Source: Fundidesulfovibrio soli
Lineage (GTDB): Bacteria; Desulfobacterota; Desulfovibrionia; Desulfovibrionales; Desulfovibrionaceae
Length of the DNA: 64,000 bases
Direction: 5' to 3'
Assembly: GCF_022808695.1 (NCBI RefSeq)
Contig: NZ_JAKZKW010000009.1
Coordinates: forward strand, 62,001-126,000
The translations under genes and the position numbers were made by a program. This document shows, piece after piece, positions 40,758 to 55,299 of the stretch; position 1 is the stretch's first letter, and every line of letters starts with the position of its first letter. The notes beneath the pieces were generated by a model. It had not been told where the DNA came from. It worked only from the letters and a program-made list of their open reading frames with translations, and made no database searches.

Positions 40758-40834
40758 CGGGGCGTAGCGCAGCCTGGTAGCGCACCTGCCTTGGGCGCAG
40801 GGGGCCGTGAGTTCAAATCTCGCCGCCCCGACCA
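40758..40834 (+). tRNA. tRNA-Pro (anticodon UGG)
   Basis: The cloverleaf folds with a 7-bp acceptor stem (CGGGGCG with CGCCCCG), D arm GCGC, anticodon arm CCTGC/GCAGG with loop CTTGGGC (anticodon TGG) and T arm GTGAG-TTCAAAT-CTCGC. CCA is encoded at 40832-40834. It stands at the border of the AT-richer island that follows. Confidence 0.97.
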
Positions 40835-40842
40835 ATAGAATC

Positions 40843-40876
40843 AATGGGTTACGATGAAAATCGTGGCCCATTTTTT
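40843..40876 (+). terminator. Terminator after tRNA-Pro
   Basis: AATGGGTTACGAT (40843-40855) pairs with ATCGTGGCCCATT over 13 bp with two G-U pairs and a GAAA tetraloop, followed by a T-run to 40876. Confidence 0.85.
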
Positions 40877-41035
40877 CTTTGGAAAATTTCGGGATACAAA
40901 CTGGGTCAAACAATGGAGTCGTAGGAGCCTTAAGGGGAATCGTCCTTCGCGAGCAAGGCGTGATGCCGGTGCAAACTTCCAGAGTCTAGTACGTTTCGAA
41001 AGTATAGACCTCGGGCAAGTTGACGGGAGGCACCC

Positions 41036-41654
41036 GGGGGGAAGGTCACTCCGAGCGGCTTATGTGCCTCTGCTCATTGTACGGCTTTACCCAGTCCTGC
41101 ACGATCTCCATGACTTCGCCCAAACTGTTGAAAACATGAAAATGCAACACGCCGTGACGAGAGGTGCGGTTGAGCCTCCCGTCATACGAGTTCTGAGTGG
41201 GCCTGCCTGGCTGATGCGCTCCAATTCCACTCCGTGCTTCTCGGCCCAATCTGCCAGCGCAGGCTCAGCCCGTGATCGAGACAGAGGTAGGTGATCAACT
41301 CGCACTTGTCGGCCGGCCTTACAACTTTTTGCGATCACATCCTTCAGCTCCTGGTTTTCCAGGCTCAGCTCAGCAAACATCGGCTTCGGCCTGTTGTGTT
41401 CGGACTCAAGCTCCTTCAGGCGTCGCACATCAGACGCCTCCATGCCGCCGTATTTGGCCTTCCACTTGTAGAACGTGGTCGAACTGACCACGTTCTCACG
41501 GCATATGCCCGAGGCTGGGCGACCAGCCTCTTCCTCTTTGAGCATCTTGACGATCTGGCTTTCTGAAAATCGAGATTTCCGCATCGTTCCCTCCGGGGCT
41601 GCTTTGCCAGAAATCTCAACTTTTGGCTGGTCCTATTCTAGGGGAGGGTTACAC
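41036..41654 (-). mobile_element. IS3-family insertion sequence remnant (orfA plus broken orfB)
   Basis: On the minus strand an ATG at 41584 opens a typical IS3 OrfA (RKSRFSESQIVKMLKEEEAG with an HTH and then a leucine-rich helix). It runs straight into a piece of OrfB, skipping the central DDE core. The OrfB C-terminal sequence continues in another frame (QPGRPTQNSYDGRLNRTSR and VQDWVKPYNEQR), so there is at least one frameshift and a large internal deletion. The upstream end, TGTAACCCTCCCC at 41653-41641, could be a terminal inverted repeat; the partner end was not recognised. The element cannot encode an active transposase. Confidence 0.85.
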
Positions 41655-41675
41655 ATGGAGTGAATTCGATTCAGG

Positions 41676-41819
41676 TTGGAAGCCAAGATGGTCATTGAAG
41701 ACTGGCGCAAGCAGCACAACGAGGTCCGGTCCCACTCAAGCCTTGGAAGGATGACCCCCAAGACCTTCGCCGGAATGATCGGCAACAACCTGAATCAGGG
41801 GGCCACTCTCAAATATTGA
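41676..41819 (+). pseudogene. IS3-family transposase orfB, C-terminal fragment
   Basis: The open frame codes for EDWRKQHNEVRSHSSLGRMTPKTFA and then ends at TGA; this is the normal C-terminus of IS3 OrfB. It lies on the opposite strand to the other IS3 remnant, about 20 bp from that element's end, so it is probably from a different insertion. It has no start or catalytic part. Confidence 0.8.
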
Positions 41820-42023
41820 GTGGTCCGAAGTGACCCGGCAGGCTAGGCCATGCCGGAGCGAACACTGTTTCAACGACTTGAACAAGATATATACCCAAGC
41901 ATAATTTTAAATATGTCACGCAAATAACTGCACATTACAAGATGTTCACATGAATACGGCAGGATCAATCCAGTATCATTAATGAATGTGGGAGTTGATT
42001 AGCACTCAATAAACCAGGAATAG

Positions 42024-42052
42024 TTTGACTGAGTCAAAAAGCCTGTTAAAAT
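42024..42052 (+). promoter_or_regulatory. Promoter-like site with perfect palindrome over the -35
   Basis: TTTGACT-G-AGTCAAA (42024-42038) is a perfect 7-bp palindrome whose left arm contains a TTGACT -35. TAAAAT (42047-42052) follows with a 16-bp spacer. No intact gene lies directly downstream, so this may be a leftover of a lost gene or an element's own promoter. Confidence 0.4.
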
Positions 42053-42246
42053 AAGAATGAAAAATACCATACTGATTTAGTTGTGAACGGATCTTGCTGG
42101 GTTCATTCGAAATATTTTACCGGACACCACGGAGTGCCATTGAAACTATACGGCGGGCCACAACGGATTCGCTGCCGCATGCGGCCAGGAAAGATGTCTA
42201 CAGCCCCCCTGAGCGGCTTAAAGGGGTAAAATATTAAAAGTCATCG

Positions 42247-42505
42247 ATGCGGATCATTGATGAGATAGGCTTTCAGCCTTTGCCCCATGGCGAAGCTGTT
42301 TCATGGTTCCGGGTGGTTAACTGACGCTACGACACAGGCAGTACGGCCATCCCGACGAACAAGTTAGTCAAAGATTATCCGGAGATTTTAGCCGGTGACG
42401 GTACGATGGCCACGACAAATTGATCGATTGCCGCACGGGAGTCACGTCCTGGACGTCACAGGACGTTCATACAGGCTCAAGGCATTAGAGAGCATGCTCA
42501 AGTAG
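42247..42505 (+). pseudogene. IS21-family istB remnant (helper ATPase), frameshifted
   Basis: Translating across frames gives RIIDEIGFQPLPHGEAVSWF (IstB Walker B and following strand), then RYDTGSTAIPTNKLVKDYPE in a shifted frame after a stop, then RLPHGSHVLDVTGRSYRLK and ALESMLK ending at TAG. These three blocks follow in order the C-terminal half of IstB. At least two frameshifts and several substitutions are present. The N-terminal half with Walker A and the istA transposase gene are missing. Confidence 0.82.
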
Positions 42506-42963
42506 AAGTCCGGTACTTCAAGGCGTTTTGATGAAAGAGGACGCTGGAAATGGTCCGGCGGGCAATCAAAACAACCAGGAGTCGTAAAGACTCATGTCCC
42601 CGATCTTCATAAAAACTCCCGCCCCTGGACACCTCTGAGTGGTTCTGAGCTTAGGGGGCCTCAAGAATTCAGGGATATATTCTTCGATGGGCGGAACTAG
42701 CGCTCACATGCCGCCGACTAGAGCGTTCACTTCCTGGAGCAGAGTCTTTTGCGGATTTTGCTGAAGCCACAAGGCCCAAAAAACAGTTTTTTGGCAATAG
42801 CACTCTTAACCCTGGATTACATGCAGTTCCAACTGGACGGCAACAGGGAACAAGACAGAGTTTTCGACACTGGGTTCTATATTCGCAACATTTCTGGATA
42901 AAGGCAATTTGCCTTGAAGTTAACAAAGATGTTCACACGTTATGCCTACCACAGGAGGTAGTT

Positions 42964-44859
42964 ATGAAGTGGAAACATATGTTTCACCGGAATACTGGCG
43001 TCGTGGTTATCTTGATCTGTCTTGATTTTCTTGGATTTAACGTCCATGCCACAGCTCAGCACCCTGCAACAGACCCCAACTACCAAGCATCAGACTCCGG
43101 TGAAGATGGAATATCCTGCTATGACCCTCTCCAGGTATTCGCCTTTAACGACCTGGGAATGCACTGCTACGACCAAGACTTCTCTGTTTTTTCCCTCCTG
43201 CCGCCTTTTAACGTAGTCCACTCCCAGGTTGTCATCAAAGGGGCCAAACCCAGACTATTGAATGACACCCAGGTCAACCTCACTTATCGCGCCATAGCCG
43301 ACCCCAGTGGATCCATCAATACCACCAGCATCGGCAAGACCAACTTTTGGACATATATCACCAAGCTCTATGGAGTGACTCAGCCCCCGGACACAGGAAT
43401 CCTGGGTTACAAAATGCCCAACGCCAATTTCGGACCGCAGGCTCTGACGCCATACGACCCTAACTATAAATGGTTCAGCGCTACCGGTATTCCCACGACC
43501 AACATTGACGATAAGCTCAACATCAATTCCTTCACCATGATGAAAGTTCGGGCCGTGCACAAGATTGCCTTCCTCAGGCCCAAATCCCTCGACATCGTAC
43601 TTCCAGCCTCAAGCGAGATGAATTGCGCATCTTGCCACGAGACCGCCGCTTTTGTCCCGCTCAACCCCGGCAGCGCCAGCGATGCCTCACCGCCGCCACG
43701 GCTCACCTCGCTGACGCCTGACAGCTTCAGCACCAATCCGGACGCCAACATTCGCTTCCGTGAGAATATCCTGATCCTGCACGACGCTTTGAACGCCACT
43801 ACCCTGTACGCCAAGTATCTTGCCGGCAACCCGACGCTCTGCGCCTCCTGCCATTATTCCAAGGCGCTGGATCTGGGGGGGACCGGTCCCCAGGGGCCTC
43901 AGCTGACCCACATCTATCTCTCCAGGGGCATGCATAAACATCACGGCACCTCCTGGCCCATGCTGGACGGCATGGGAACCTATGTGGTCCCGATTCCGGG
44001 GACCGGGGTGACGCAATGTTATTACTGTCATCCCGGCAACGACACCCAGTGTCTGCGTAGCGTCATGGCGGTCAAGGGCATGCAGTGCCAGAGCTGCCAC
44101 GGTGAATTGCTGCAGGTGGGCGGCTTCACCCCGAATTTAGGGCAGCCGGGCTTCGTAGATCCCTACCTGCCGGACGTTAACGCCCCGAACCTGGTGGTCA
44201 ACCTGACTACCACCGGAGCCCAAAGGCGCCCCTGGGTGGATATGCCCAAGTGCCAGTCCTGCCACTCCGGTGACGCCCTCAGCCATCTGGGAGACAATCT
44301 CATCGGCCAGACGGCATATGATCCCAACGACCCGGCCGCGACGTCCCTCATCGCGCCCAACCAGCGCTTTGCCGAAAATCCAGGGCAGCTCTTCCGCTTC
44401 AGCGGGACGCATGGGGGCATGGCCTGCCAGGCCTGCCACGGCAGCCCCCACGCCGAGTGGCCGGCCCGGTCCAGCACCAACGACAACATCACCGCAACAC
44501 AGATCCAAGGCCACACCGGCGAAATCGCCGAATGCGGCGCCTGCCATCTTCCCCTGCTGCGCCCAAGTTTAGGAGGGCCTCACGGCCTCCACAACGTTAA
44601 TGACGCTGGCTGGATGAGACAGCACGGCTTCTTTATGCGGCGCGACCGGACCACCTGCATGGCCTGCCACGGCACGGACCTGAATGGCACGGCACTGAGC
44701 CGGGCCAAAGACAACCGGACTCTTCACCGGAGCAGGAGTCTGGGCGGCGTGGTCAACTACACCACGGGAACACAGGTGAGCTGTTATAGCTGTCATACCA
44801 ACATCATCTTTCACACCTATCTCCCCCAGATCAATTTATTGCTTCAGAACGGCAAATAA
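42964..44859 (+). CDS. Nine-heme c-type cytochrome
   Basis: The 631-residue protein has an N-terminal signal peptide or anchor (about residues 10-32). A heme-free domain of ~190 residues follows, with two lone cysteines in ISCYDP and LGMHCYDQD. Then there are nine CXXCH heme-binding motifs, at about residues 221, 293, 352, 375, 430, 488, 524, 565 and 607. It would carry electrons in the periplasm or at the cell surface. Base composition is AT-richer than the rest of the window, mostly in the first third. GGAGG lies 6 nt before the ATG. It stands alone among decayed insertion sequences, with no porin or quinol oxidase gene, so its electron partner is unknown. It resembles large multiheme cytochromes of Geobacter-like deltaproteobacteria. 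Confidence 0.9.
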   Translation: MKWKHMFHRNTGVVVILICLDFLGFNVHATAQHPATDPNYQASDSGEDGISCYDPLQVFAFNDLGMHCYDQDFSVFSLLPPFNVVHSQVVIKGAKPRLLNDTQVNLTYRAIADPSGSINTTSIGKTNFWTYITKLYGVTQPPDTGILGYKMPNANFGPQALTPYDPNYKWFSATGIPTTNIDDKLNINSFTMMKVRAVHKIAFLRPKSLDIVLPASSEMNCASCHETAAFVPLNPGSASDASPPPRLTSLTPDSFSTNPDANIRFRENILILHDALNATTLYAKYLAGNPTLCASCHYSKALDLGGTGPQGPQLTHIYLSRGMHKHHGTSWPMLDGMGTYVVPIPGTGVTQCYYCHPGNDTQCLRSVMAVKGMQCQSCHGELLQVGGFTPNLGQPGFVDPYLPDVNAPNLVVNLTTTGAQRRPWVDMPKCQSCHSGDALSHLGDNLIGQTAYDPNDPAATSLIAPNQRFAENPGQLFRFSGTHGGMACQACHGSPHAEWPARSSTNDNITATQIQGHTGEIAECGACHLPLLRPSLGGPHGLHNVNDAGWMRQHGFFMRRDRTTCMACHGTDLNGTALSRAKDNRTLHRSRSLGGVVNYTTGTQVSCYSCHTNIIFHTYLPQINLLLQNGK

Positions 44860-45224
44860 AACCCAGGAGAACCATAAAATAATACATTGTAATCGCCTCA
44901 GGCCTGCAACTCTTGCATGATGCATTATAACTCTGGGCAGCCGCGGAGGTTAACAATGGCCAATCTCAACCTATTGCCCCGGTCACCACCAAGTTCAGGA
45001 TGCAATGACGGCTAACGTACTTGAGGGATGAATCGGGATCGGTCACCTTTGAAGTCTAGTCCACTCGAAACCTGCGCTAGCGGTCCAGATCGTGGCGCCG
45101 AGGGAAGCGTTTGCCTCGGCGCCACGTTCACGCTAAGCATCTGCTGCGACGCGTCCACGGGCTGGGCGCCGCGCCTGCTCCGCGCGCTGATCCGGGGCGA
45201 AACCGTGACGAAACGGCGGTTGAG
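44860..45224. other. Intergenic region with a 19-codon frame and a possible insertion-sequence end
   Basis: A GGAGG precedes an ATG at 44956 that opens only 19 codons (stop at 45013), perhaps the stub of a truncated gene. The stretch from about 45028 to 45062 (ATGAATCGGGATCGGTCACC and following) resembles outer ends of IS21-type elements, but I cannot confirm it. The perfect hairpin at 45091 is listed separately. GC content rises to the genome level from about 45060, marking the right border of the AT-rich island. Confidence 0.45.
45091..45126 (+). other. Perfect 13-bp hairpin in the leader of the 45225 operon
   Basis: CGTGGCGCCGAGG (45091-45103) pairs exactly with CCTCGGCGCCACG (45114-45126), leaving a 10-nt loop. 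There is no T-run after it. It lies 99 bp before the first gene of the aminotransferase/MFS operon and may shape its leader RNA or bind a regulator. Confidence 0.6.
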
Positions 45225-46532
45225 ATGGACACCATTCTTTCCCTGGAGACCCCACCGGAGATCGGGTACGCCCGCGTCCTGACCTTCGCAGCCGAGACGC
45301 TGGCCCGGTCGCGGGGGCTTGCGGCGCGCGAGCAGACACGCTTCCAGCTGGCGGTCGAAGAGTTCTTCACCTACCTCGCCAAAACCGTACCCGGCCATGC
45401 CCCCATCAAGACCGTCCTGACGGGCAAGCCCTACCAGGTCTGCGCCTCCATCCGCTTCAAGGCGGCCAATCTGTGCCTGGGGGCGCTCAACGCGTGCTGC
45501 CCCGCCGCTCCGGCGGGCGACCTCGAGGCCGGGGAGCCCCTGAGCCTCATCCTCGCGGGGCGTGTGGCCGACCGGTTCCGCATCGACTGCGAGGGCGGCG
45601 ACGCGTTCGTCCTGCACGCCGAGGTGGACAAGGTCTATCCCAAGGCCGACACGCCGGACCAGCACATCATCATCCGGCCGCCCTACCGCGCGGCCGCCCA
45701 GGACGACCCGGGCCTGCTCGTGCTCGCGGCGGGCCTGGCGGCGGCCAGCTACCCGGCTTGGCACTGCCCGGCCAGCTTCCAGACACCCGGGAAGTTCGCC
45801 GACATGAGCCAGGCCGGCAGGTTCCAGAGCATCATGGCCCTGGACGCGGCGTCCCATCCCGCGGGGCTTTTGTGCTGGACCAGGTCCGGCGACAAGGGGT
45901 TGTCCTTTTCAGGCCCGTTCGTGTTCGCGCCCCCCGAGGACGGAGCCGAGGTGGCCCGCTTGCTCATGGACGCGTTCCTGGCAGCCGTGGCCCGCGAAAC
46001 CGCCGAGATCGTCTTCAGCGAGCGGGCCACGCCGGACACCCCACCGGGCTACTTCGAGCCCCTGGGGTCGCTCACCCTGCACGCCCCGGGCGGCACGATC
46101 GAACAGCCCGTACTGTACCGCCACCTGCGGGAAGACACGGGCGAGACGGTCTGGGCGGCCCCTGAACTCGCGGATTTCCTGCATGGCGCCTACGACCGGC
46201 TGGCCATGTGCCGCAACGTCATGACGGCCCACCCCGCGACCTCCGCCGAGCGAGAACGATCGCTCTTTTCGGCCACAGTGGACAAATACAAGGCGACAGC
46301 GGCGCTGCGCCCCTTGCTGGACGGCGAGGACACCCAAGCCAACCTCGCGGCCCACGTGGGGGCCTTGTCCGGGAAGGGCGTCGCGAACATCTTCCTCTAC
46401 ATCGACCTCTCCCGCTCCTGGGAGGCCGCATTGGCCGGGGCGGCCCTGCGGGCAGGTTTCAGGCCGAGGCTCGTGCTTCCCTTCGCGGGCCGCTCGGACG
46501 TCCTGGTGCTCCAGCATGACCAGGCTGATTGA
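45225..46532 (+). CDS. Degenerate RsbW-like ATPase-fold protein with GNAT-associated C-terminal domain
   Basis: The 435-residue protein starts with an anti-sigma/RsbW-like HATPase domain (about residues 1-130). The N-box glutamates are present in FQLAVEEFFTYL (Glu45-Glu46), but the Asn that coordinates Mg-ATP is Tyr50, so ATP binding is doubtful. The middle (about 150-300) is not assigned. The C-terminal ~110 residues (LAAHVGALSGKGVANIFLYID through LVLQH) resemble the last domain of the ACP-GNAT protein encoded at 52497; in other bacteria this domain occurs in fused RsbW-GNAT proteins. The ATG at 45225 has only a weak ribosome-binding site. The next gene overlaps its end by 17 nt. Confidence 0.62.
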   Translation: MDTILSLETPPEIGYARVLTFAAETLARSRGLAAREQTRFQLAVEEFFTYLAKTVPGHAPIKTVLTGKPYQVCASIRFKAANLCLGALNACCPAAPAGDLEAGEPLSLILAGRVADRFRIDCEGGDAFVLHAEVDKVYPKADTPDQHIIIRPPYRAAAQDDPGLLVLAAGLAAASYPAWHCPASFQTPGKFADMSQAGRFQSIMALDAASHPAGLLCWTRSGDKGLSFSGPFVFAPPEDGAEVARLLMDAFLAAVARETAEIVFSERATPDTPPGYFEPLGSLTLHAPGGTIEQPVLYRHLREDTGETVWAAPELADFLHGAYDRLAMCRNVMTAHPATSAERERSLFSATVDKYKATAALRPLLDGEDTQANLAAHVGALSGKGVANIFLYIDLSRSWEAALAGAALRAGFRPRLVLPFAGRSDVLVLQHDQAD

Positions 46533-47625
46533 CCTCGTCCCGCCCCACGTCCTGGGCTTCGAGAGCTACGTCCCGAGCCGCCCGGACGAGGTTCTCAGGC
46601 GCCAGTACGGTGTGGACGCGCTCCTGCGCCTCAACAACAACGAGAACGCCCTGGGGCCGCCGCAGGCCGCCCGCGAAGCCTTGGCGGCCTTTCCGCCCGT
46701 GCAGGGTGCGGTCTACCCCAACGGCGACTGCCACTTCCTGCGCGAGGCCCTGGGCCGCGCCTTCGGCAAGGACCCCGGGCAGTTCCTGGTGGGCAACGGC
46801 TCCTGCGAAGTGATCACCTCCGTCATCAAGGCGTTCTGCCAGCCGGGAGACGCCATCGTCACGGCGGACAAGACCTTCGCCGTGTACGAATGGGTGGCCG
46901 CCTTCTCCGGCATAGAGACCAGGCTGGTCCCGCTCAAGGATTACGCCCTGGACCCCGAGGCCATGCTCGAAGCCGTGACCGAACGGACCAAGATCGTCTT
47001 CGTGTGCAACCCCAACAACCCCACAGGCTCCTGGTGGGACAAGGCCGTTCTGGAGCGTTTCCTGGAAAGGCTCGCCGGGCGCGCGGTGGTCGTGCTGGAC
47101 GAGGCCTATCGCGAGTTCGCGGAGTCCCCCGACTTCCCGGACGGCATGGACGTGCTGGAGCGCCACCTCAACGTGCTCGTGTTCAGGACGTTCTCGAAGA
47201 TGTACGGGCTGGCCGCGTTGCGGGTGGGGTACCTGTGCGGCGCGGTCGAATCCGTGGACTTCGTGCGGCGCACGCACCTGGTCTACTCGGTCAACGCCCC
47301 GGGGCAGCTGGCGGCCCGGGCCGCCGTGGAGGACGGAGCCGCCCACGTCAAGGCCACGCGCAGGATGGTGGCCCAGGCGCGCGGGTACCTGCGGGGCGTG
47401 TTCGACTCGCTCGGCCTGGAGCACGTCTCGGGCGAGGGGAACTACATCATGGCCCGCGTGCCCGTCCCGGACACGCTGCTCTACCGGCTCCTGATGCGCC
47501 AGGGGGTGATGGTGCGCACCATGACGGGCTTCCGCTTCCCCAACTGGATACGGGTCACCCTGGCGGAGCAGCCCGCCATGGAGGCCTTCGCCGCGGCCTT
47601 GCGCAAATCCCTGGACGGCAGATGA
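46516..47625 (+). CDS. HisC-like PLP-dependent aminotransferase
   Basis: This class I/II fold aminotransferase of 369 residues is closest to histidinol-phosphate aminotransferases (and the related CobD decarboxylase group). LRLNNNENALGPP near residue 38, NPNNPTG at 166-171, the PLP-contacting Asp195 and Tyr198 in LDEAYREF, and the Schiff-base Lys228 in RTFSKMYGL are all present. Its operon position, between the RsbW-like gene (17-nt overlap) and an MFS carrier (ATGA overlap), argues for a role in a special pathway and not in histidine synthesis. The amino acceptor is not known. Confidence 0.88.
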   Translation: MTRLIDLVPPHVLGFESYVPSRPDEVLRRQYGVDALLRLNNNENALGPPQAAREALAAFPPVQGAVYPNGDCHFLREALGRAFGKDPGQFLVGNGSCEVITSVIKAFCQPGDAIVTADKTFAVYEWVAAFSGIETRLVPLKDYALDPEAMLEAVTERTKIVFVCNPNNPTGSWWDKAVLERFLERLAGRAVVVLDEAYREFAESPDFPDGMDVLERHLNVLVFRTFSKMYGLAALRVGYLCGAVESVDFVRRTHLVYSVNAPGQLAARAAVEDGAAHVKATRRMVAQARGYLRGVFDSLGLEHVSGEGNYIMARVPVPDTLLYRLLMRQGVMVRTMTGFRFPNWIRVTLAEQPAMEAFAAALRKSLDGR

Positions 47626-48842
47626 ACGATCCCGCCGTGGAAGGGCCGCAACGCCTCTTCACCTATGATTTCACGGTGCTCACCCTGGCGGCGGCTTTCG
47701 GCTTCTGCAACATCGCCGTCTTCTACGGGCTCGCCAGCTGGCTCGAGCGCATAGGTGTCGACCCAGCCTGGCGCGGGGCCGTGATCGCGGCCGAGCCGCT
47801 GGCCGCGCTACTGGCGCGGCCGGTGTTGAGCGCGCGGCTCACCCCCCGCCATGCGCTCGCCCTGGCGCGGATCTCCATGGCCGGCATGGGGGTCGCCCTG
47901 CCGTGCTACCAGTTCGCGCACGGGGTTCCCGCTTTGCTCGCCGTGCGCATCCTCCACGGATTGTCCTTCGTCTGCCTGGTGAGTTCGGTCATGACGCTGC
48001 TCGCCAGGGCCGTGCCTCCCCGGCTTGCCGGGCGGGCGTTCGGCTACTTCTCCCTGTCGTCCCTGGTGCCCTACGCCCTCATGCCGCCCTTGACGGAGTG
48101 GCTCCTGCCGCGCGTGGGGGGCGAGGCCCAGGCCTACGCCTGGACCGCGCTGCTGGTCCTGCCCGCCCTGGCGCTCATGCTGCCGCTCAGCGCGAGCCTG
48201 GGGCCCTCCGCGCTGTCCGGGGAGGAGTGCCGGCCCCCTTCCAGGGGCGACATCCTGAGCAACCTGGGCAGGCTACCGATCCAGCTGCTGCTCGGCTCCA
48301 ACCTGCTCGTGTTCGCCGCCACCACGCAGGTCTTCTTTTTCATGAAGCCGTATGCCCTCTCCCTGGGGCTGGCCGACCCGGGGCTCTTCTTCACGCTGTC
48401 CACCGCCGCGTCCATAGCCGTCCGGGTCCTCGCCGGGTCCTTCTACGACAGGCTCCCCCGGCGCGCGGCCGCCACGCTGGCCATGCTGGCCCTGGGCGCA
48501 TGCATGGCGTCGTTCCTGCCGGCCGGGGGCGGGGCGCTGTTCTTCGTCCTGGCCGGGGCCTACGGCCTGTGCCTGGGCGTGGCCCTGCCCCTGCTCAACG
48601 CCGCCATGTTCCTGGAGTCCGAGCCGCGCCTTCGGGGCATGAACATGAACCTGATGCTCTTCATGATGGACGCCGGGTATGTGCTGGGGCCGCTGGCCGG
48701 CGGGGCGCTCGTGGCCGGAGCCGGCGGCTACGGCGCGCTGTTCGCGGTCAGCGCGGCAAGCGCGCTGGCGGGTGCCGCGATGCTCGCGCCGCTGGCGGTC
48801 AGGGAGCTCAGGGAGCGACGCGGCGGCCGGCACGCACCCTGA
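47622..48842 (+). CDS. MFS transporter, probable exporter of the cluster
   Basis: The 406-residue protein has about 12 hydrophobic helices. It starts with the ATGA overlap with the aminotransferase stop, so it is translated with it. GRAFGYFSLSSLVPYALMPP and MNLMLFMMDAGYVLGPLAGG resemble the sugar-efflux/antibiotic-type DHA groups of the MFS. Its gene ends 67 bp from the convergent Mo-hydroxylase operon. An export role is inferred from its place in the cluster; uptake is not excluded. Confidence 0.82.
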   Translation: MNDPAVEGPQRLFTYDFTVLTLAAAFGFCNIAVFYGLASWLERIGVDPAWRGAVIAAEPLAALLARPVLSARLTPRHALALARISMAGMGVALPCYQFAHGVPALLAVRILHGLSFVCLVSSVMTLLARAVPPRLAGRAFGYFSLSSLVPYALMPPLTEWLLPRVGGEAQAYAWTALLVLPALALMLPLSASLGPSALSGEECRPPSRGDILSNLGRLPIQLLLGSNLLVFAATTQVFFFMKPYALSLGLADPGLFFTLSTAASIAVRVLAGSFYDRLPRRAAATLAMLALGACMASFLPAGGGALFFVLAGAYGLCLGVALPLLNAAMFLESEPRLRGMNMNLMLFMMDAGYVLGPLAGGALVAGAGGYGALFAVSAASALAGAAMLAPLAVRELRERRGGRHAP

Positions 48843-48909
48843 ACCTGCTTGCGGGATCAATGTTCCGGCGGCGGCACGCCCAAGGCAGGCGAACGCGGCG
48901 GGGGGAGGT

Positions 48910-49728
48910 TCAGACGGCGAGGCGCAGCGGGAGATTCCCGGCCACGGTCCGGCGGTACGCGGCGGTTGCTCGCAGATCGTCGATGGGCGAAATTTCTTCC
49001 CGAAGGGTCTCGCCAACGGCCAGGAGGGTTTCCCGGTCGAGGCGGCGGCCCGTGAGCATGGCCTCGGCGCGGGGGCAGCGCAGCACCGTGGGGCCGACGC
49101 TGCCGAGCGCCAGGCGCGCCGACGCGACGGTGCCCGAACCGTCCAGGCGGAGCACCGCCGCCAGGCTGACCACCGAGATGGCCAGGGCCTTGCGCCGCCC
49201 CACCTTTTCAAAATGCTGGACCTCTCCCGCTGCCGGGATGCGCGCCAGAACGGCCGACACGATCTCCCCCTCGCCGAGGGCGGTGCGGCCCGGCCCCAGG
49301 ATGAACCCGTCCAGGGGGACCCGCCTGGTCCCCTGCCTGGAGGCCAGTTCCACCACGGCGTCCAGGGCGTAAAGGGGCGGCAGGGTGTCCCCGGCCGGAG
49401 AGGCCGTGACGATGTTGCCCCCGATGGTGCCCATGTTGCGGACCAGCGGGGAGCCCAGCACGGAGAGCGCACGCGCCAGCACCGGCAACCCCGAAGCCGT
49501 CAGGGGGTGGCGCAGGAGACGCGAGTGCGTCTCGCACGCGCCCATGCGCAGGAGACCTTCCTCCTCGCGGATGCCCTGGAGGCCCGCGATGCGCTCCAGG
49601 CAGGCGACGCGCCCGGGCGCGCCACGGCGCGCCAACAGGTCCGTTCCTCCGGCCATGACCGCGAACCCGTCTTCCAACAGGGGCCACAACTCGGCCAGGG
49701 AGCCGGGACAGCGCACGTCAGCGTTCAC
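48910..49728 (-). CDS. Molybdenum hydroxylase FAD-binding subunit (CoxM/XdhB type)
   Basis: The 272-residue protein has the FAD-binding-5 signatures: VMAGGTDLLARR near residue 24 and the TIGGNIVTASPAGDTLPPL block near 102, which in this family holds the pyrophosphate-binding loop. A CO-dehydrogenase flavoprotein C-terminal domain follows (RRKALAISVVSLAAVL). It passes electrons from the Fe-S subunit to an acceptor such as NAD or a quinone. The start overlaps the Fe-S gene by 4 nt. This is the last gene of the minus-strand operon. Confidence 0.92.
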   Translation of the reverse strand: MNADVRCPGSLAELWPLLEDGFAVMAGGTDLLARRGAPGRVACLERIAGLQGIREEEGLLRMGACETHSRLLRHPLTASGLPVLARALSVLGSPLVRNMGTIGGNIVTASPAGDTLPPLYALDAVVELASRQGTRRVPLDGFILGPGRTALGEGEIVSAVLARIPAAGEVQHFEKVGRRKALAISVVSLAAVLRLDGSGTVASARLALGSVGPTVLRCPRAEAMLTGRRLDRETLLAVGETLREEISPIDDLRATAAYRRTVAGNLPLRLAV

Positions 49729-50210
49729 TTCGTTTCCTTTCCCATGGCCTGGGCCGCATCCATCACCGCATCCACGATCTTCACGTACCCCGTGCAGCGG
49801 CAGAGGTTGCCCGAAATCGCCTCGCGCGCCTCATGGCGCTGCGGGCTGGGGTTGCGGGCGAGCAGCTCGGCGACAGCCACGGTCATGCCCGGGGTGCAGT
49901 AGCCGCACTGCACGGCTCCGGCGGCGGCGAACGCCGCCTGGATGGGGTGGGGGTCATCGATGGTGCCGAGGCCCTCGGCCGTGACGACCTCGCGCCCTTC
50001 CAACTGGGCCGCCAGCATCAGGCAGGAAAGCCTGGCCACGCCGTCCACCAGCACGGCGCAGGCCCCGCACTCGCCCGAGCCGCAGCCCTCCTTGACGGCG
50101 GTGAGCCCCAGATCCTCGCGGATCAGGTCCACCACCCTCCTGCCGGGGCTGGTCTCGATGCGGACGGGTGCACCGTTCAGGGTGAACGTCAAAGTCACCA
50201 TCCCGCTCAT
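49725..50210 (-). CDS. Molybdenum hydroxylase 2Fe-2S subunit (CoxS/XdhC type)
   Basis: The 161-residue protein has both [2Fe-2S] sites of the family: a plant-ferredoxin-like cluster with CGSGECGACAVLVDG (about residues 43-57) and a helical second cluster with CGYCTPGM and NLCRCTGY. It carries electrons from the Mo centre to the FAD subunit. It overlaps both neighbours by 4 nt, so the three subunits are made together. Confidence 0.95.
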   Translation of the reverse strand: MSGMVTLTFTLNGAPVRIETSPGRRVVDLIREDLGLTAVKEGCGSGECGACAVLVDGVARLSCLMLAAQLEGREVVTAEGLGTIDDPHPIQAAFAAAGAVQCGYCTPGMTVAVAELLARNPSPQRHEAREAISGNLCRCTGYVKIVDAVMDAAQAMGKETK

Positions 50211-52489
50211 GGTTTTTCGCCTCCCATCGCCTCAAGCACCTCCTGCGGGTTCACGGGCAGCCGCCGCGCGACAAGGCCGACGGCGTCCTCCAGGGCCTGG
50301 GCCACGGCCGGGGCCGGGCCGTGCACGCCCACCTCGCCCATGCCCTTGAGGCCGTGCGGGCCGGTGGGCTCGTCGCCCTCCACGCTGACGCACTCCAGGG
50401 GGGGCAGGTCCAGCGCGGTGGGGATCAGGTAGCGGTCCAGGCCGTCCGCCCGGATGAGCCCCTCCTCCACGTGAAGGTCCTCCAGCAGGGCGAACCCGGC
50501 TCCCTGGGCCGCCGCGCCCTGCACCTGGCGTTCGACCCCCAGGGAGTCGAACACGCGCCCGCACTCCACGGCGGTGACGCAGCGCACGAGCTCGACCTGC
50601 CCGGTCAGCTCGTCCGCCTCCACGGCGCAGACGCACGCCCCGTGGGAATACATGCGGTGCGGAAAGCCCAGCCGAAATTCCTTGCCGGTGTCCGGCGGAT
50701 TCTCCACGACGGGCATGACGAACTGGTCGATGCAGATGCGGTCGTCGCGCTGAAGCATGGACCCGATCTGGGAAAGGGAGACGCTGCGCCCCGTGGCCTC
50801 GTCCACGACCGCCCCCGGCCTAATCGCCAGGCGGTCCGGTTCATCGGCCAGCAGAAAGAGCGCGGCCCGGGCCTTGAGCTTCTCCCGCATGGCCCCGCAG
50901 GCCTTCAGCAGCGCGTTGCCGAACGTGTAGGTGGTGCGGCTGGCCGAGGAGGACCCCGCCGGCAGGCACAGGCGGGTGTCCGGCTGGACGACCTCGATGG
51001 CGGCGGTCTCCTGGTTCAGGGCCTCGGCCGCCATGAGCGCGAACGCGGCCGCGTTGCCTTGCCCCATGTCCGGCACGGAGTTGAAGACGCGGAACGTCCC
51101 CCCCTTGGTGAGTTCGAGCTTGGCCGCAGCTGCGTCCGGCAGGCCGCGCCCGTAGCCCATGGCGTTGAACGAGGCGGCGATGCCCACCCCACGGCGCTTG
51201 CAGGCCGGGGCCTGGGCCTTCCAGGCGTCCCTCTCCTTCCAGGCCGGATGGGCCATGACCGCCTCCAGGCATTCGGCCGCGCCCGCAGGGGACTCCATGG
51301 GCACGCCCGCGCAGTTCAGGTCACCCGGGCGCAGGGCGTTTTTCAGGCGGAGTTCGGCGGGGTCCATGCCCAGGCGCTGGGCCAGGCTGTCCATGGCCCG
51401 CTCCACGGCGAAGCTGGCCTGCGCGACGCCGAAGCCCCGGAAAGCGCCGCCCACGGGGTTGTTGGTGTAGGCGCAGGAGCCCTCGATGCGCGTATGGGGG
51501 ATGAGGTACGGCCCGCCCGCGTGCTCCATGGCCAGGGCCATGATCTCCACGGCCAGGTGGGCGTACGGCCCGGAATCGAACAGCATGGCGCAGTCCAGCG
51601 CCTGGAGCGTTCCCTGGCGCGAGGCCCCGAGCCGCACGCGCACGCGTGCGGCGTGGCGCTTGTAGCCAGCCAGGAAGGTCTCCCCCCGGCTCCAGCACAT
51701 CTTCACCCAGCGCCCGCCGCCGTGCAGGGCGGCCAGGGCCAGCAGGCACTGCACCGTCGCCCCGTCCTTGCCGCCGAAACCGCCGCCCAGGTAGGGCGCG
51801 CGCACGCGCACGCGCATGGGGTTGAGGCCGAGGGCGTGGCCGATCTCGAAACGGTCGCGGAAGGGTGCCTGGGTGGAGGCGGTCATCTCGATGCCGCCGT
51901 CGCGGGTCATCCTGGCCGTGCCGTTGGGCGGCTCCAGGAAGGCGTGCTCCTGCATGGGGGTCTCGAAGCGGCCCTCCACCACCACGTCGCAGCCGGCAAA
52001 GGCTGACGGCGCGTCGCCCTTCTCCACGAGGGCGTGGGCCAGGAGGTTGCCGCCCTCACGGCCGGAATGGACCAGCGGCGCCCCCGGCGCGAGGGCCTGC
52101 TCAGGGTCGAAGACCCCGGGCAGGGGAACGAGCTCCGTGCGGATGAGGGACAGGGCCCCGGCCAGGGCCTCCCGGCTCTCGGCCAGCACCAGGGCCACGG
52201 CGTCGCCCGCGTGGCGCACCGTGTCCGTGACCAGCACGGGCTGGTCCTTGTGCACGATGCCCTGCAGGTTGGCGCCGGGCACGTCCGCCCCGGTGAGCAC
52301 TGCCACGACGCCGGGCAGGGCGCGGGCCTCGCGCGTGTGCACGGCCACGACCCGGGCGTGGGGGACGCCCGCGCGCCTGGCCCCGGCCCAGAGGCAGCCC
52401 GGCGGGGCGATGTCCGTGCTGAAGCGCTCGGCCCCCACGGCCTTGGACATGGTGTCCCTCAGGGGAGGCCCGTTCCGGCGCGTCGCCAT
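50207..52489 (-). CDS. Molybdenum hydroxylase large subunit (xanthine dehydrogenase family)
   Basis: The 760-residue catalytic subunit binds molybdopterin-cytosine dinucleotide. PYLGGGFGGKDG (about residue 245), GAFRGFGVAQ (about 352) and the catalytic base Glu719 in KGMGEVGVHG are the three Mo-pocket motifs. Enzymes of this family hydroxylate heteroaromatic or aldehyde carbons using water, or reductively dehydroxylate aromatic acyl-CoA (4-hydroxybenzoyl-CoA reductase). The adjacent benzoate-CoA-ligase-like gene makes an aromatic substrate plausible. It starts 7 bp after the ACP-GNAT gene. Residues that select CO dehydrogenase (AYXCSFR) are absent. Confidence 0.93.
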   Translation of the reverse strand: MATRRNGPPLRDTMSKAVGAERFSTDIAPPGCLWAGARRAGVPHARVVAVHTREARALPGVVAVLTGADVPGANLQGIVHKDQPVLVTDTVRHAGDAVALVLAESREALAGALSLIRTELVPLPGVFDPEQALAPGAPLVHSGREGGNLLAHALVEKGDAPSAFAGCDVVVEGRFETPMQEHAFLEPPNGTARMTRDGGIEMTASTQAPFRDRFEIGHALGLNPMRVRVRAPYLGGGFGGKDGATVQCLLALAALHGGGRWVKMCWSRGETFLAGYKRHAARVRVRLGASRQGTLQALDCAMLFDSGPYAHLAVEIMALAMEHAGGPYLIPHTRIEGSCAYTNNPVGGAFRGFGVAQASFAVERAMDSLAQRLGMDPAELRLKNALRPGDLNCAGVPMESPAGAAECLEAVMAHPAWKERDAWKAQAPACKRRGVGIAASFNAMGYGRGLPDAAAAKLELTKGGTFRVFNSVPDMGQGNAAAFALMAAEALNQETAAIEVVQPDTRLCLPAGSSSASRTTYTFGNALLKACGAMREKLKARAALFLLADEPDRLAIRPGAVVDEATGRSVSLSQIGSMLQRDDRICIDQFVMPVVENPPDTGKEFRLGFPHRMYSHGACVCAVEADELTGQVELVRCVTAVECGRVFDSLGVERQVQGAAAQGAGFALLEDLHVEEGLIRADGLDRYLIPTALDLPPLECVSVEGDEPTGPHGLKGMGEVGVHGPAPAVAQALEDAVGLVARRLPVNPQEVLEAMGGEKP

Positions 52490-52496
52490 CGCGGCC

Positions 52497-53795
52497 CTAC
52501 CCTTGAGCCCGGGCGCGGTCGAAGTCCGCGCGGATGTGTTCGAGGATGGTCTTGGCCCTGTCGGAATGGAGGTTGATGGCCTCGAACTCGGGCTCGACGG
52601 TGAGCTTCTGCATGAGGAGCCCGTCCGCCCCGAACCAGAGGGGGATGAGCCCCCCCAGGAAGAAGCCGCGCGCCCGGAGCGCCTCCACGGCGAAAGCCGT
52701 GCCCGGAGCGCCCGTGTTCACGAAAACCTGGATCACGGCCTGGCCCTGGCTGGCCGCGTCCCGGTCCAGCTCCTCCACCCGCGCGGGGAAATCCGCCCCC
52801 ACGGCCAGGACCTGGGCGCGCACCACCTGGGCGAAATCGAAGGCGCGGCTCTCAAGCGAAGTCACCGCGGCGGCGGGAGCGTCCGGGGGGCTGAAGTGGA
52901 TGTCGCGCTCCAGGCGGAAGCCGTCCAGAATGTATTCCAGCTCACGCCGGTAGCACTGCGGCAGGTGCAGGGGCATGCGCCTGTCGCGGTCCACCCGGGC
53001 CCCGAGCAGGCAGCTCACCCGCTGGGCTCCCGCGCCTTCCTTCTCGTAGGCCCCGTCGGGCATGAGGGCCACCTCCAGGCCGCACTCCGAGTAGCTCTGC
53101 TTGTGGACGAGCTTCTGGGTGATGGTGTGCGAGCACACCGCCTCCCCGAAGAACCCCTGGGCCTGGGTCATGGTGCGCGACAGGTTGTCCATCGCCCGGA
53201 TGATCTTGGCGGCCATGAGCGTGTCGCGATACTCGTGGGCCACCATGACCTGCCCGAACTCGAAGAGCGCCTTGTTGGGGGGCGAACTCCGGTAGTAGGC
53301 CCCCTGCCCGGCCACGACTCCCGTTTCCAGGCGGGCGACCACGGTGAGCAGGCTGCCCTCGGCGTTGAGCTCCTCGATGCGCTCCGGGATGTAATAGTCC
53401 TCCACGGGGTAGCGGTCGCCGTAGACGGTGTAGAAGAGCTGGGCCACGCCCTGCCCGTCGCCGGGCCGCAGGGGGCCGATCTCGTAGGCCTTCCCGGGCT
53501 CCACGTTCTTCCAGTTCCGGCGTATGCGGCCGATGTGGCCGTCCTCCGGCCGCCCAGCGTCCAGGTGCGCGCGGATGTGCGCGGCGAAATCATCCAGGGT
53601 GCGCAGCGACAGGGAGTCGCGCTCGCCGATGGTCACCCCGTAGCGGCTCTCCACCGCCAGGGTGAAGGCCGGATAATCCAGGGAGTCCACCCCCTGGCGC
53701 AGCAGCGGCGCATCGGGGCGCACCGCCTCGGCCACGGCCTGGTCCACCCCGGCTTCCACCAGCAGGTCGCGAAGTTCACGCGTCGTCACGTCCAT
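52497..53795 (-). CDS. Acyl carrier protein fused to GNAT-like acyltransferase
   Basis: The N-terminal ~80 residues are an acyl carrier domain: the phosphopantetheine attachment Ser38 is in RQGVDSLDYPAF, with the helix ESRYGVTIGERD after it. Residues about 105-260 resemble a GNAT domain (YEIGPLRPGDGQGVAQLFY, EFGQVMVAHEYRDTLMAAKI, FGEAVCSHTITQKL). The C-terminal ~120 residues (IQVFVNTGAPGTAFAVEALR, GFFLGGLIPLWF) match the final domain of the protein at 45225. The carrier may hold an acyl group made by the adjacent ligase and the GNAT part may pass it to an amine. I know of no characterised protein with this order. It lies 19 bp after the ligase gene. Confidence 0.78.
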   Translation of the reverse strand: MDVTTRELRDLLVEAGVDQAVAEAVRPDAPLLRQGVDSLDYPAFTLAVESRYGVTIGERDSLSLRTLDDFAAHIRAHLDAGRPEDGHIGRIRRNWKNVEPGKAYEIGPLRPGDGQGVAQLFYTVYGDRYPVEDYYIPERIEELNAEGSLLTVVARLETGVVAGQGAYYRSSPPNKALFEFGQVMVAHEYRDTLMAAKIIRAMDNLSRTMTQAQGFFGEAVCSHTITQKLVHKQSYSECGLEVALMPDGAYEKEGAGAQRVSCLLGARVDRDRRMPLHLPQCYRRELEYILDGFRLERDIHFSPPDAPAAAVTSLESRAFDFAQVVRAQVLAVGADFPARVEELDRDAASQGQAVIQVFVNTGAPGTAFAVEALRARGFFLGGLIPLWFGADGLLMQKLTVEPEFEAINLHSDRAKTILEHIRADFDRARAQG

Positions 53796-53814
53796 GAGGC
53801 CCCCTGAAAATGGC

Positions 53815-55299
53815 TCAGCATTGGCGCAGCACGAACCGCTGCACCTTGCCGGTTGCGGTCTTGGGAAGCTCCGGCACGAACTCGAAGCACGCCGGGCACA
53901 TGTGCTCCTGGAGGCGGCCCAGCAGGAACTTGCGCAGCTCGAGAGTCAAGGCTTTGCCCGTCGCCGCGCCGGGCGCGGCCACCACGAAGGCGCAGATCAC
54001 GTCCAGGCCGTTGACGCGTCGCGCTGCGACAGCGCATTCGGCGACTGCCGGATGCCGCAACAGCTCCTCCTCGACCCGCACCGGCGACACCCACTGGCCC
54101 GCGGACTTGAGCATGTCGTCGCTGCGGCCCTGGTGCGCGTAGAATCCGCCCTCCTCCACGAAGACGTCGCCTGTGCGCAGCCAGCCGTCCGCGAGCATGG
54201 TCTCGCGGGTCTTGTCCGGGCGGTTCCAGTATTCCCGGCACAGCCCCTCGCCCCTGACGAGCAGGTGGCCCTGGCTCCCCGGGGGGACGTCCCGCCCCGC
54301 GTCGTCCACGAGCCTGGCCTCGAACCCCTGCACCGTCTGCCCCGCGCTCCCCGGCCTGGAATGCCCCTTCCGGTTGGAGATGAACACGTTGAAGGCTTCG
54401 GTGGAGCCGATGCCCTCCAGGACCTCCCTCCCGGTGATGCGCGCCCACTCCTCGTGGAGGAGCGAAGGCAAGGCTTCGCCCGCGCTGTAGCACAGGCCGG
54501 GGACGCTCTCCTTCATGGCTGGCTCGAAGGCCCTGATCATCGCGTTGTAGAGGGTGGGCACCCCGAAAAACGCCGTCGGCCTGTGCCGGAGCATCAGGTC
54601 GAACACGTCGCAAGGGCCGGGCTTGCCGGGGAAAAGCACCGTGGCCGCCCCGGCGGCCAGGGGCAGGGCGAGGCTGGCGAGCAGGCCGTAGGCGAAGAAG
54701 AGCTTGCTGGAGGAGAGGACCACATCCCGGTCCGTAAGCCCCAGCACGAGGCCCCAGGTCCGCGCCGGGACCAGCAGGTCATCCTGCCGGTGCGGCACGC
54801 CTTTGGGCCGCCCGGTGGAGCCGGAACTGTAGAGCATGAAGCCCGGACGGGCGTCGTCCGCCGGGCGGGGATCGAAAACGGGCGGGAGACCGTCCAGGCC
54901 GGGAGGCCCCATGTCGTCGCAGAGGACGGCCGGGCAACGGCCCTCGGCGGCCTCGAGCGAGGGATGCCCCGGGACGGTGAGCAGGAGCTTCGCGCCGGAA
55001 TCCTCCAGCAGGAAGCCATAGTCCGGCGCATGCAGGGAGGTGTTGACCGGCACGGGGCAAGCCCCGGCGAGCATTGCGCCGAGGAAGGCGCAGACCATGG
55101 CGGGCGTGTCGGGCAGGGACAGCATGACCCTGTCCCCAGGCCGGATGGACCGGGAATCGAGGAAGGAGGCGCACCGCAGGCAACGTCCGGCGAGCTCGCC
55201 GTATGTCAGGGCCGATGACCCGAACCGATACGCCGTCCTGTCCGGGCCGAAAGACATGCCGGATTCCAGCAGAGACCAAGCCGCGTTGCGTCGCCCCAT
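53815..55299 (-). CDS. Acid-activating adenylate-forming ligase, benzoate-CoA ligase-like
   Basis: The 494-residue ANL-superfamily enzyme makes an acyl-adenylate and then a thioester. The P-loop YSSGSTGRPKG is at about 157-167. The A5-like motif is GIGSTEAFNVFISN and the hinge region is RSDDMLKSAGQWV. The C-terminal catalytic Lys485 is in KTATGKVQR. The GSTE and FISN wording is closest to benzoate-CoA ligases. As the first gene of a minus-strand operon with an ACP-GNAT fusion and a Mo hydroxylase, it likely supplies an aryl or acyl group, with either CoA or the carrier domain as acceptor. The 236 bp up to the divergent yceI-like gene would hold both promoters; none is evident. Confidence 0.9.
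   Translation of the reverse strand: MGRRNAAWSLLESGMSFGPDRTAYRFGSSALTYGELAGRCLRCASFLDSRSIRPGDRVMLSLPDTPAMVCAFLGAMLAGACPVPVNTSLHAPDYGFLLEDSGAKLLLTVPGHPSLEAAEGRCPAVLCDDMGPPGLDGLPPVFDPRPADDARPGFMLYSSGSTGRPKGVPHRQDDLLVPARTWGLVLGLTDRDVVLSSSKLFFAYGLLASLALPLAAGAATVLFPGKPGPCDVFDLMLRHRPTAFFGVPTLYNAMIRAFEPAMKESVPGLCYSAGEALPSLLHEEWARITGREVLEGIGSTEAFNVFISNRKGHSRPGSAGQTVQGFEARLVDDAGRDVPPGSQGHLLVRGEGLCREYWNRPDKTRETMLADGWLRTGDVFVEEGGFYAHQGRSDDMLKSAGQWVSPVRVEEELLRHPAVAECAVAARRVNGLDVICAFVVAAPGAATGKALTLELRKFLLGRLQEHMCPACFEFVPELPKTATGKVQRFVLRQC

Follow-up and report, generated by a model that had tools for sequence, protein, structure and literature searches.

Partner switching is a type of control usually used for stress responses, and the described systems closest to the regulatory part of the locus studied here are RsbU/RsbV/RsbW and SpoIIAB/SpoIIAA. 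The enzymes of the same locus have described counterparts in the benzoate-CoA/anthranilate-CoA ligase family, in the nicotinate and xanthine dehydrogenases, and in the GNAT loading domains of curacin-type polyketide synthases (PKS). The locus occupies positions 45225-55299 of a 64,000-nucleotide stretch of the Fundidesulfovibrio soli genome (contig NZ_JAKZKW010000009.1, positions 62,001 to 126,000; hereafter the window), and comprises eight genes, which comparison with relatives identifies as one conserved system, the set not being complete everywhere. The cluster is apparently widely conserved and undescribed: we found no account of it in the open-licence literature, as far as titles and the beginnings of abstracts tell, which is no proof that none exists. 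We propose, with a probability of about 0.5, that in Fundidesulfovibrio it forms a single system which makes and exports a small acylated nitrogen compound of the acyl-amide type.

The coordinates confirm the original prediction, made from the letters of the sequence, of eight genes in two tight convergent operons separated by 67 bp between the stops at 48842 and 48910:

45225..46532, + strand: RsbW-like protein of 435 amino acids, with a putative pseudo-RsbW domain at residues ~1-140 and a tandem GNAT-like body at ~155-435
46516..47625, + strand: HisC-like class I/II pyridoxal phosphate (PLP) aminotransferase (Aminotran_1_2; 269.1 bits with TIGR01141)
47622..48842, + strand: MFS transporter, probably an exporter (MFS_1, E 1e-26)
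48843..48909, no strand: convergent intergenic stretch of 67 bp
48910..49728, - strand: flavin adenine dinucleotide (FAD) subunit of a molybdenum (Mo) hydroxylase, 272 amino acids (FAD_binding_5, CO_deh_flav_C)
49725..50210, - strand: [2Fe-2S] subunit of the Mo hydroxylase (Fer2, Fer2_2)
50207..52489, - strand: Mo-cofactor subunit of nicotinate/xanthine dehydrogenase type, active-site motifs kept (MoCoBD_1/2)
52497..53795, - strand: fusion of an acyl carrier protein (ACP) domain at residues 1-85 (motif GVDSLD; PP-binding, E 3e-6) with a tandem GNAT
53815..55299, - strand: adenylate-forming ligase of the benzoate-CoA ligase family (AMP-binding; TIGR02262 above cut-off)

The minus-strand operon thus runs from 55299 down through ligase, ACP-GNAT, Mo, 2Fe-2S and FAD genes to its end at 48910. 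The description of the genes as tightly overlapping holds for four of the six within-operon junctions (17, 4, 4 and 4 bp), the other two having gaps of 7 and 19 bp. No T-tailed terminator was found in the intergenic stretch. The predicted family assignments are borne out by Pfam and TIGR02262 for the ligase, carrier, Mo hydroxylase, aminotransferase and MFS protein, and, as to its fold, by an AlphaFold model with Foldseek for the GNAT.

We compared two samples of loci. Gene calls came from a simple caller written for this analysis, and family counts were therefore taken from a six-frame profile search with score limits of our choosing. In the first sample, 99 relatives including the source genome were searched with the RsbW-like protein; 26 matched, and besides the window's own locus we retrieved the surroundings of 25 others. 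In 23 of these 25 loci no more than 60 bp separate the RsbW-like gene from the HisC-like one; in one of the remaining two the distance is 2.4 kb, and the last is cut by a contig end. Within 10 kb there is also a GNAT in 17, an MFS gene in 14, the Mo subunit in 13 and the ligase in 3; in one genome (G040) the ligase, ACP, GNAT and Mo genes stand about 20 kb off on the same contig. The second sample was obtained by scanning named genomes with the GNAT alignment, which gave 79 loci, 33 with an RsbW-like gene and 46 without. Several of these come from one genome and some are contigs of the first sample (e.g. L105=G202, L156=G297), repeats that are kept in neighbour and residue counts. All 33 RsbW-like genes here have a GNAT within 10 kb, as expected from the way the loci were chosen, and HisC adjoins 32 of them. 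HISC-family genes occur in none of the 46 loci lacking the RsbW-like gene vs 32/33 of those possessing it, Mo subunits in 7/46 vs 20/33, and MFS genes in 8/46 vs 25/33.

Taken together, these comparisons identify the RsbW-like and HisC-like genes as the tightest core of the cluster; the title of the original prediction, which left the RsbW-like protein out, missed half of this pair. Co-occurrence of GNAT and RsbW-like genes within 10 kb, which had been put forward as a sign of a single system, is seen in 17 of the 25 RsbW-selected loci (and, by choice of the loci, in all 33 RsbW-bearing ones of the GNAT-selected sample); a conserved set exists, though not a complete one everywhere. The distance matrices of the RsbW-like, HisC-like, Mo and GNAT proteins are correlated (r 0.75-0.89, not reached in any of 2000 permutations) across 33 distinct clusters, left from 36 after dropping identical RsbW proteins; shared host descent, which this permutation test does not remove, contributes to the correlation. 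One genome (G309) encodes an RsbW-HisC fusion of 810 amino acids. In L104 (Desulfobulbus elongatus) and L177 the cluster genes stand in a single row in the same direction. The two operons are thus not merely neighbours in the window, as the original prediction had supposed.

Six of the seven same-genus genomes searched, the source genome included, hold the RsbW-like gene, so that the locus is not a chance arrangement; all six are at least 96% complete and have an identical layout of core genes, with variation in ligase and ACP. The seventh (G302), 66% complete, gave no RsbW-like match. Of 395 genomes sampled across the phylum, 50 contain a member of the RsbW-like family (E<=1e-10), with two strong but partial and three weak matches among them; the family also occurs in metagenome-assembled genomes labelled as other phyla. 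In the RsbW tree, a strongly supported grouping unites loci labelled Geobacter, Thiodictyon, Rhodoferax, Chlorobiaceae and Desulfobulbus, and the phylum labels show scarcely any clustering (13 changes vs a shuffled mean of 14.1, a value as low being obtained in 39 of 200 shufflings), in a tree where 11 of 45 forks are open and the root is weak. This suggests that the cluster was transferred between phyla, with the reservation that labels and bins of metagenome-assembled genomes can be wrong.

Concerning acyl activation, the window ligase passes the cut-off of the benzoate-CoA-ligase family (TIGR02262, 388.9 vs 375.25), matches a benzoate-CoA ligase of the PDB with E 2e-100, and keeps the family motifs KLFFAYGL, SAGEAL and TGK. 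It differs from two solved benzoate ligases in having STEAFN in place of STEMLH. This pocket motif is STEAFN or STEACN in the window's genus and STEALH, TTELTH or others in other clades, and different acids are therefore predicted for them. A further difference from the benzoate-CoA ligase family is the presence of a dedicated ACP, with the ligase fused to an ACP in two relatives (L108, L110). The ligase is therefore probably a carrier ligase, whose acyl acceptor may be the ACP rather than CoA.

The ACP-GNAT protein gave no Pfam or NCBIfam match at E<=0.01 in the part that follows the carrier. Its AlphaFold model (mean predicted local distance difference test, pLDDT, 92.3) retrieves GNATs with Foldseek at E 1e-8; among PDB sequences the profile found only weak GNAT matches (best E 0.14). 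The window GNAT has a conserved R190 after beta-4 and does not keep the glycines of the acyl-CoA loop; family members in L162 and L099 match PF00583. As for the carrier, all 29 matches contain the D-S motif, 19 fitting the search pattern and the other ten differing before it or having V/M after; among the 29, one (L065) is a relic and two (L126, L162) score low. In L065 the relic (positions 2922-3086) retains the serine motif; the GNAT gene downstream of it has a carrier-like domain of its own that lacks this motif. With the curacin-type GNAT loading domains the window protein shares a GNAT fold placed next to an ACP, but its GNAT is tandem, its ACP is N-terminal, the window has no ketosynthase, and no such loading domain is among the PDB sequence matches.

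Ligase and carrier come and go together. Among eight near relatives with the cluster, both the ligase and an intact ACP are present in four (the source genome G000, G297, G298, G300), and both are lost or inactive in four (G299, G301, G316, G326), all of which retain the GNAT, Mo enzyme, HisC, RsbW-like and MFS genes. G301, of the same genus, has a C-terminal relic of the ligase (51% over 35 amino acids, E 1.3e-4) and an apparent carrier stub; in G299, likewise of this genus, ligase and carrier are gone and only the apparent first carrier residues are left. G326 and G316 have a carrier-like domain deprived of the serine motif with no ligase found near; directly upstream of this domain, G326 also has a relic of the carrier in which the motif is still present. 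Elsewhere in these four genomes, the best ligase matches reach 31-35% identity. G301 and G299 belong to different supported clades of the RsbW tree, so two losses are apparent within the genus, and G326 and G316 form a third lineage. Over 126 GNAT matches, with genome repeats kept, a ligase within 3 kb is accompanied by an ACP within 0.7 kb in 26 and both are lacking in 89, which makes 115 in agreement, while the remaining 11 disagree; another search, in which 96 of 297 genomes matched, many by the ACP part only, was not used as a GNAT count. These comparisons show ligase and carrier to be an optional branch of acyl supply, coupled to each other and missing from most relatives.

Other clusters show other suppliers. 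Besides the ligase-ACP fusions and the ACP-GNAT fusions of the window and other loci, L162 has a GNAT-ligase fusion, and G365 (=L076) encodes a 1336-amino-acid fusion of AMP-ligase, GNAT and aromatic amino acid ammonia-lyase between the RsbW/HisC/GNAT and the Mo genes, in a cluster where we saw no ligase or ACP of the window's families. A similar fusion in L129 has phenylalanine ammonia-lyase (PAL) as its best-scoring model and, for the ligase portion, 4-coumarate ligase, without reaching either cut-off. The two three-part fusions (L129:8759-12724, L076:8081-12088) have a tandem GNAT. We take the FL of the ammonia-lyase to be PAL-type. A coumarate ligase (TIGR02372) and an ammonia-lyase are linked to chromophore supply for photoactive yellow protein. 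The G365 cluster resembles that pathway in its AMP-ligase and ammonia-lyase domains, as does the L129 fusion by its match to TIGR02372, but these domains flank a GNAT, the L129 score is 277.9 vs a cut-off of 334.7, and nothing of the kind is in the window. Further, L145 (4695-8318) encodes a GNAT fused to a module of a nonribosomal peptide synthetase (NRPS) that consists of the C-terminal portion of a condensation domain followed by adenylation and carrier domains. Ketoacyl synthase III (KAS III) is accompanied by an ACP in L107, a ketosynthase by an ACP and a class III aminotransferase in L120, and an acetyl-CoA-carboxylase-like protein by ACP and GNAT in L116. Given these varied fusions and acyl neighbours, the GNAT appears to be a module that accepts acyl groups from different suppliers. 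The statement that the combination has no polyketide or NRPS core is correct for the window but does not extend to relatives, some of which have ketosynthases with ACPs and one the NRPS module fused to GNAT. Two side observations concern this family: the L145 fusion, in a locus labelled Syntrophomonas, is near Mo-hydroxylase and MobA-like genes; and a second conserved setting is seen in L153, L163, L174 and L175, where a family GNAT follows five genes whose lengths match between the loci, those of L163 encoding an aminotransferase, a protein without match, two proteins of 2-oxoacid:ferredoxin oxidoreductase type and a glycosyltransferase.

The Mo enzyme looks like a hydroxylase of the nicotinate/xanthine dehydrogenase type. 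It has the Mo-cofactor, 2Fe-2S and FAD subunits of the xanthine dehydrogenase superfamily, and the closest solved chain to its Mo subunit is the large subunit of nicotinate dehydrogenase (E 2e-85). E270, R351 and E719, which we take to be the active-site Glu, Arg and Glu of xanthine dehydrogenase, are each kept in 41 of 42 aligned rows. It differs from the known enzymes in falling below every listed NCBIfam equivalog cut-off (pucD 525.4 vs 783.65, XdhA 436.9 vs 780) and in its biosynthesis-like gene setting. The FAD subunit of 4-hydroxybenzoyl-CoA reductase carries an extra [4Fe-4S] loop. Assignment to that reductase was rejected: TIGR03195 gives 86.1 vs 404.55, and the FAD subunit is short, with four scattered Cys, and seems to lack the extra cluster loop. 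From this short, Cys-poor subunit and the kept active-site residues, hydroxylation is expected rather than reductive dehydroxylation.

The HisC-like protein narrowly misses the TIGR01141 cut-off (269.1 vs 276.55), and another gene of the source genome (G000:C16) exceeds it with 323.8. The first is therefore ruled out as the only histidine-pathway enzyme of its kind in this genome, and is probably not its main HisC. Regarding transport, MATE proteins are exporters, and L108 and L162 have a MATE-family gene in the cluster with no MFS-family match there; because of these replacements the MFS protein is probably an exporter as well.

The RsbW-like protein has no Pfam or NCBIfam match at E<=0.01. 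Its profile nonetheless finds RsbW among solved structures (E 7e-4, profile positions 3-84), and its AlphaFold model (mean pLDDT 91.7) has an N-terminal RsbW fold (best Foldseek match SpoIIAB, E 2e-7, target template modelling score 0.78) followed by GNAT-like folds. The Asn of the N-box is lost, position 50 being occupied by Y, F, H, A or W in at least 32 of the 33 rows of the alignment, and the Gly of the DxG motif is Arg in 24 of 33 rows and kept in 4. By hhalign (probability 94, E 1.2e-7) the GNAT-like part is a homologue of the cluster's GNAT protein, with Asp at the residue aligned with the conserved R190. As judged from sequence and model, the protein is a pseudo-RsbW domain, i.e. a degenerate HATPase, joined to a paralogue of the GNAT protein. 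The loss of the ATP-site Asn and the fusion to a GNAT-like body distinguish it from the RsbW/SpoIIAB anti-sigma kinases. Separately, we observed in a distant branch of the family (L099:9292-11232) a HATPase_c_2 domain fused to GNAT, with Pfam matches to both.

Genes for a partner switch adjoin the cluster in part of the relatives. Within 10 kb of the 33 RsbW-like genes of the named loci we found STAS in 14, PP2C phosphatase in 11, kinase in 10 and NMT1 sensor genes in 6; in the 25 RsbW-selected loci, each of the four occurs in 4. The L177 set comprises, by Pfam, a STAS protein, an intact HATPase_c_2 kinase, a Cache-HAMP-SpoIIE phosphatase and an NMT1-type binding protein. Such a set, together with the RsbW fold, is what the cluster shares with RsbU/RsbV/RsbW and SpoIIAB/SpoIIAA. 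The position of these genes beside the RsbW-like gene in some relatives makes control of the enzymes by partner switching probable; on the simplest reading, they would be regulated by STAS binding to the pseudo-RsbW domain. Unlike described partner-switching systems, there is as yet no sign of the RsbW-like protein acting on a sigma factor, unlabelled neighbours not having been scanned for these.

The proposed mechanism may be laid out in steps of falling confidence. The ligase would adenylate an aryl acid and load it on the ACP domain; the GNAT domain would transfer the acyl group from the carrier to an amine, or from a CoA thioester in relatives lacking ligase and ACP; the product would leave through the MFS pump. 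The HisC-like enzyme would make or use the amino compound, and the Mo enzyme would hydroxylate a heteroaromatic or acyl part. Finally, the RsbW-like protein would be a non-catalytic partner of GNAT/HisC that docks STAS, with the Cache-PP2C phosphatase and the STAS kinase switching the enzymes post-translationally. No STAS, kinase or phosphatase gene of the switch families was found near the cluster in the window's genus, so there this last step may be relaxed or supplied from elsewhere. The order from acid through carrier or CoA to GNAT is supported by the fusions (ligase-ACP, ACP-GNAT, ligase-GNAT, coumarate-ligase-GNAT-ammonia-lyase, GNAT-NRPS) and by the coupled losses. The path from acid to carrier, GNAT and export in the original prediction is thus supported by comparative evidence, if not proven, with MATE standing in for MFS; ligase and ACP prove to be an optional branch, and the alternative that the acid is reduced is disfavoured by the hydroxylase type of the Mo enzyme. 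More tentatively, the cluster might be a new biosynthetic class, in which the pseudo-kinase RsbW/pseudo-acyltransferase would serve as STAS-docking subunit of a GNAT/aminotransferase complex, and a periplasmic or membrane signal would gate an exported acyl-amide post-translationally; we consider this possible without favouring it.

Several observations weigh against this proposal. Most relatives are devoid of ligase and ACP, and the core then needs another acyl source or other chemistry; the PLP enzyme beside the GNAT could itself do other chemistry. Pocket variation between clades means that the acid is probably not the same everywhere. Within 10 kb the Mo subunit is missing in 12 and the GNAT in 8 of the 25 RsbW-selected loci, some of which are cut by contig ends, and in L074 and L078 no cluster family other than RsbW-like and HisC adjoins in the 20 kb fetched. 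With respect to the switch, its genes are present in a minority of loci only, and the pseudo-RsbW domain is the only clue to it in the window; the best match to the cluster-type phosphatase in the source genome has 31% identity over query residues 262-636, STAS and kinase genes not having been searched for there.

The same genes can be read in the opposite, catabolic direction: the MFS protein would import a substrate for activation by the ligase, the Mo enzyme would hydroxylate it and a transamination would follow, while the GNATs would detoxify or shuttle CoA esters. The ligase and Mo-hydroxylase families are indeed best known from the breakdown of aromatics and N-heterocycles, and some cluster hosts carry the names of aromatic degraders (Syntrophus, Syntrophorhabdus). 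Yet, as against the standard partners of aromatic degradation that the original prediction had named as a refutation, no ring-reducing, ring-cleaving or beta-oxidation gene is among the 11 window neighbours scanned, other window genes having been left out; the dedicated ACP has a conserved D-S motif, MATE occurs where MFS was not seen, and the ammonia-lyase and AMP-ligase of relatives would make rather than break a cinnamoyl group, other relatives having ketosynthases or an NRPS module. We regard catabolism as unlikely. The acyl-amide proposal must also be set against a curacin-type role, where the GNAT would initiate or edit an acyl chain on the ACP, no amide would be formed, and the product would be a small ketide or aryl acid derivative. 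The ACP adjoining or fused to the GNAT fits this role, as do the KAS III, ketosynthase and carboxylase-like genes found with ACPs in L107, L120 and L116, but no ligase or ACP is near 89 of the 126 GNAT matches, an elongation enzyme is missing from the window, and ketosynthases were identified only in two loci, those whose unlabelled genes were scanned for them; this makes the role quite improbable.

An RsbW-type domain, a GNAT fold and partner-switch neighbours could also belong to a signalling device in which the GNATs acylate cellular proteins and the RsbW-like protein regulates transcription. Against this, almost all RsbW-like genes have HisC beside them, and genes for the Mo enzyme, transporters and acyl supply are frequent, so that we judge such a device very unlikely. 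That two independent operons became neighbours by chance, as their opposite strands in the window might suggest, is scarcely credible: it is contradicted by the relatives with all genes in one row and one direction, by the neighbour counts and by the co-varying distances of the core proteins.

If the acyl-amide proposal is true, the cluster would specify a so far unnamed family of exported small molecules of anaerobes (sulfate reducers, Geobacter relatives and syntrophs), its marker gene being present in about one eighth of the sampled genomes of the phylum (50/395). The exchanges of acyl supply, from benzoate-type ligase with ACP to cinnamate-type and NRPS fusions, would predict a set of related products, with the genes giving a hint of the acyl part of each. 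The RsbW-GNAT fusion would shift partner switching from control of transcription to direct control of metabolic enzymes.

The source genome comprises 3,996,106 bases in 41 contigs, and a plasmid collection, searched by megablast only, gave no near match. The 11 scanned neighbours in the window belong to cytochrome, YceI, HAD, sulfatase, amylase, HTH/PAS and HATPase families or have no match. About 100 bp upstream of the RsbW-like start is a strong hairpin, a near-perfect inverted repeat at 45091-45126 (fold z-score -4.45 for 45075-45145); it is not found at the same place in five other members of the genus, and a role as a conserved regulatory element is not supported. Further upstream, at 40758-44859, a tRNA-Pro is followed by a low-GC stretch with a multihaem cytochrome gene, the GC content being 51.5% in 42001-44000 vs 59-73% in the other 2-kb steps; this low-GC stretch may represent acquired DNA.

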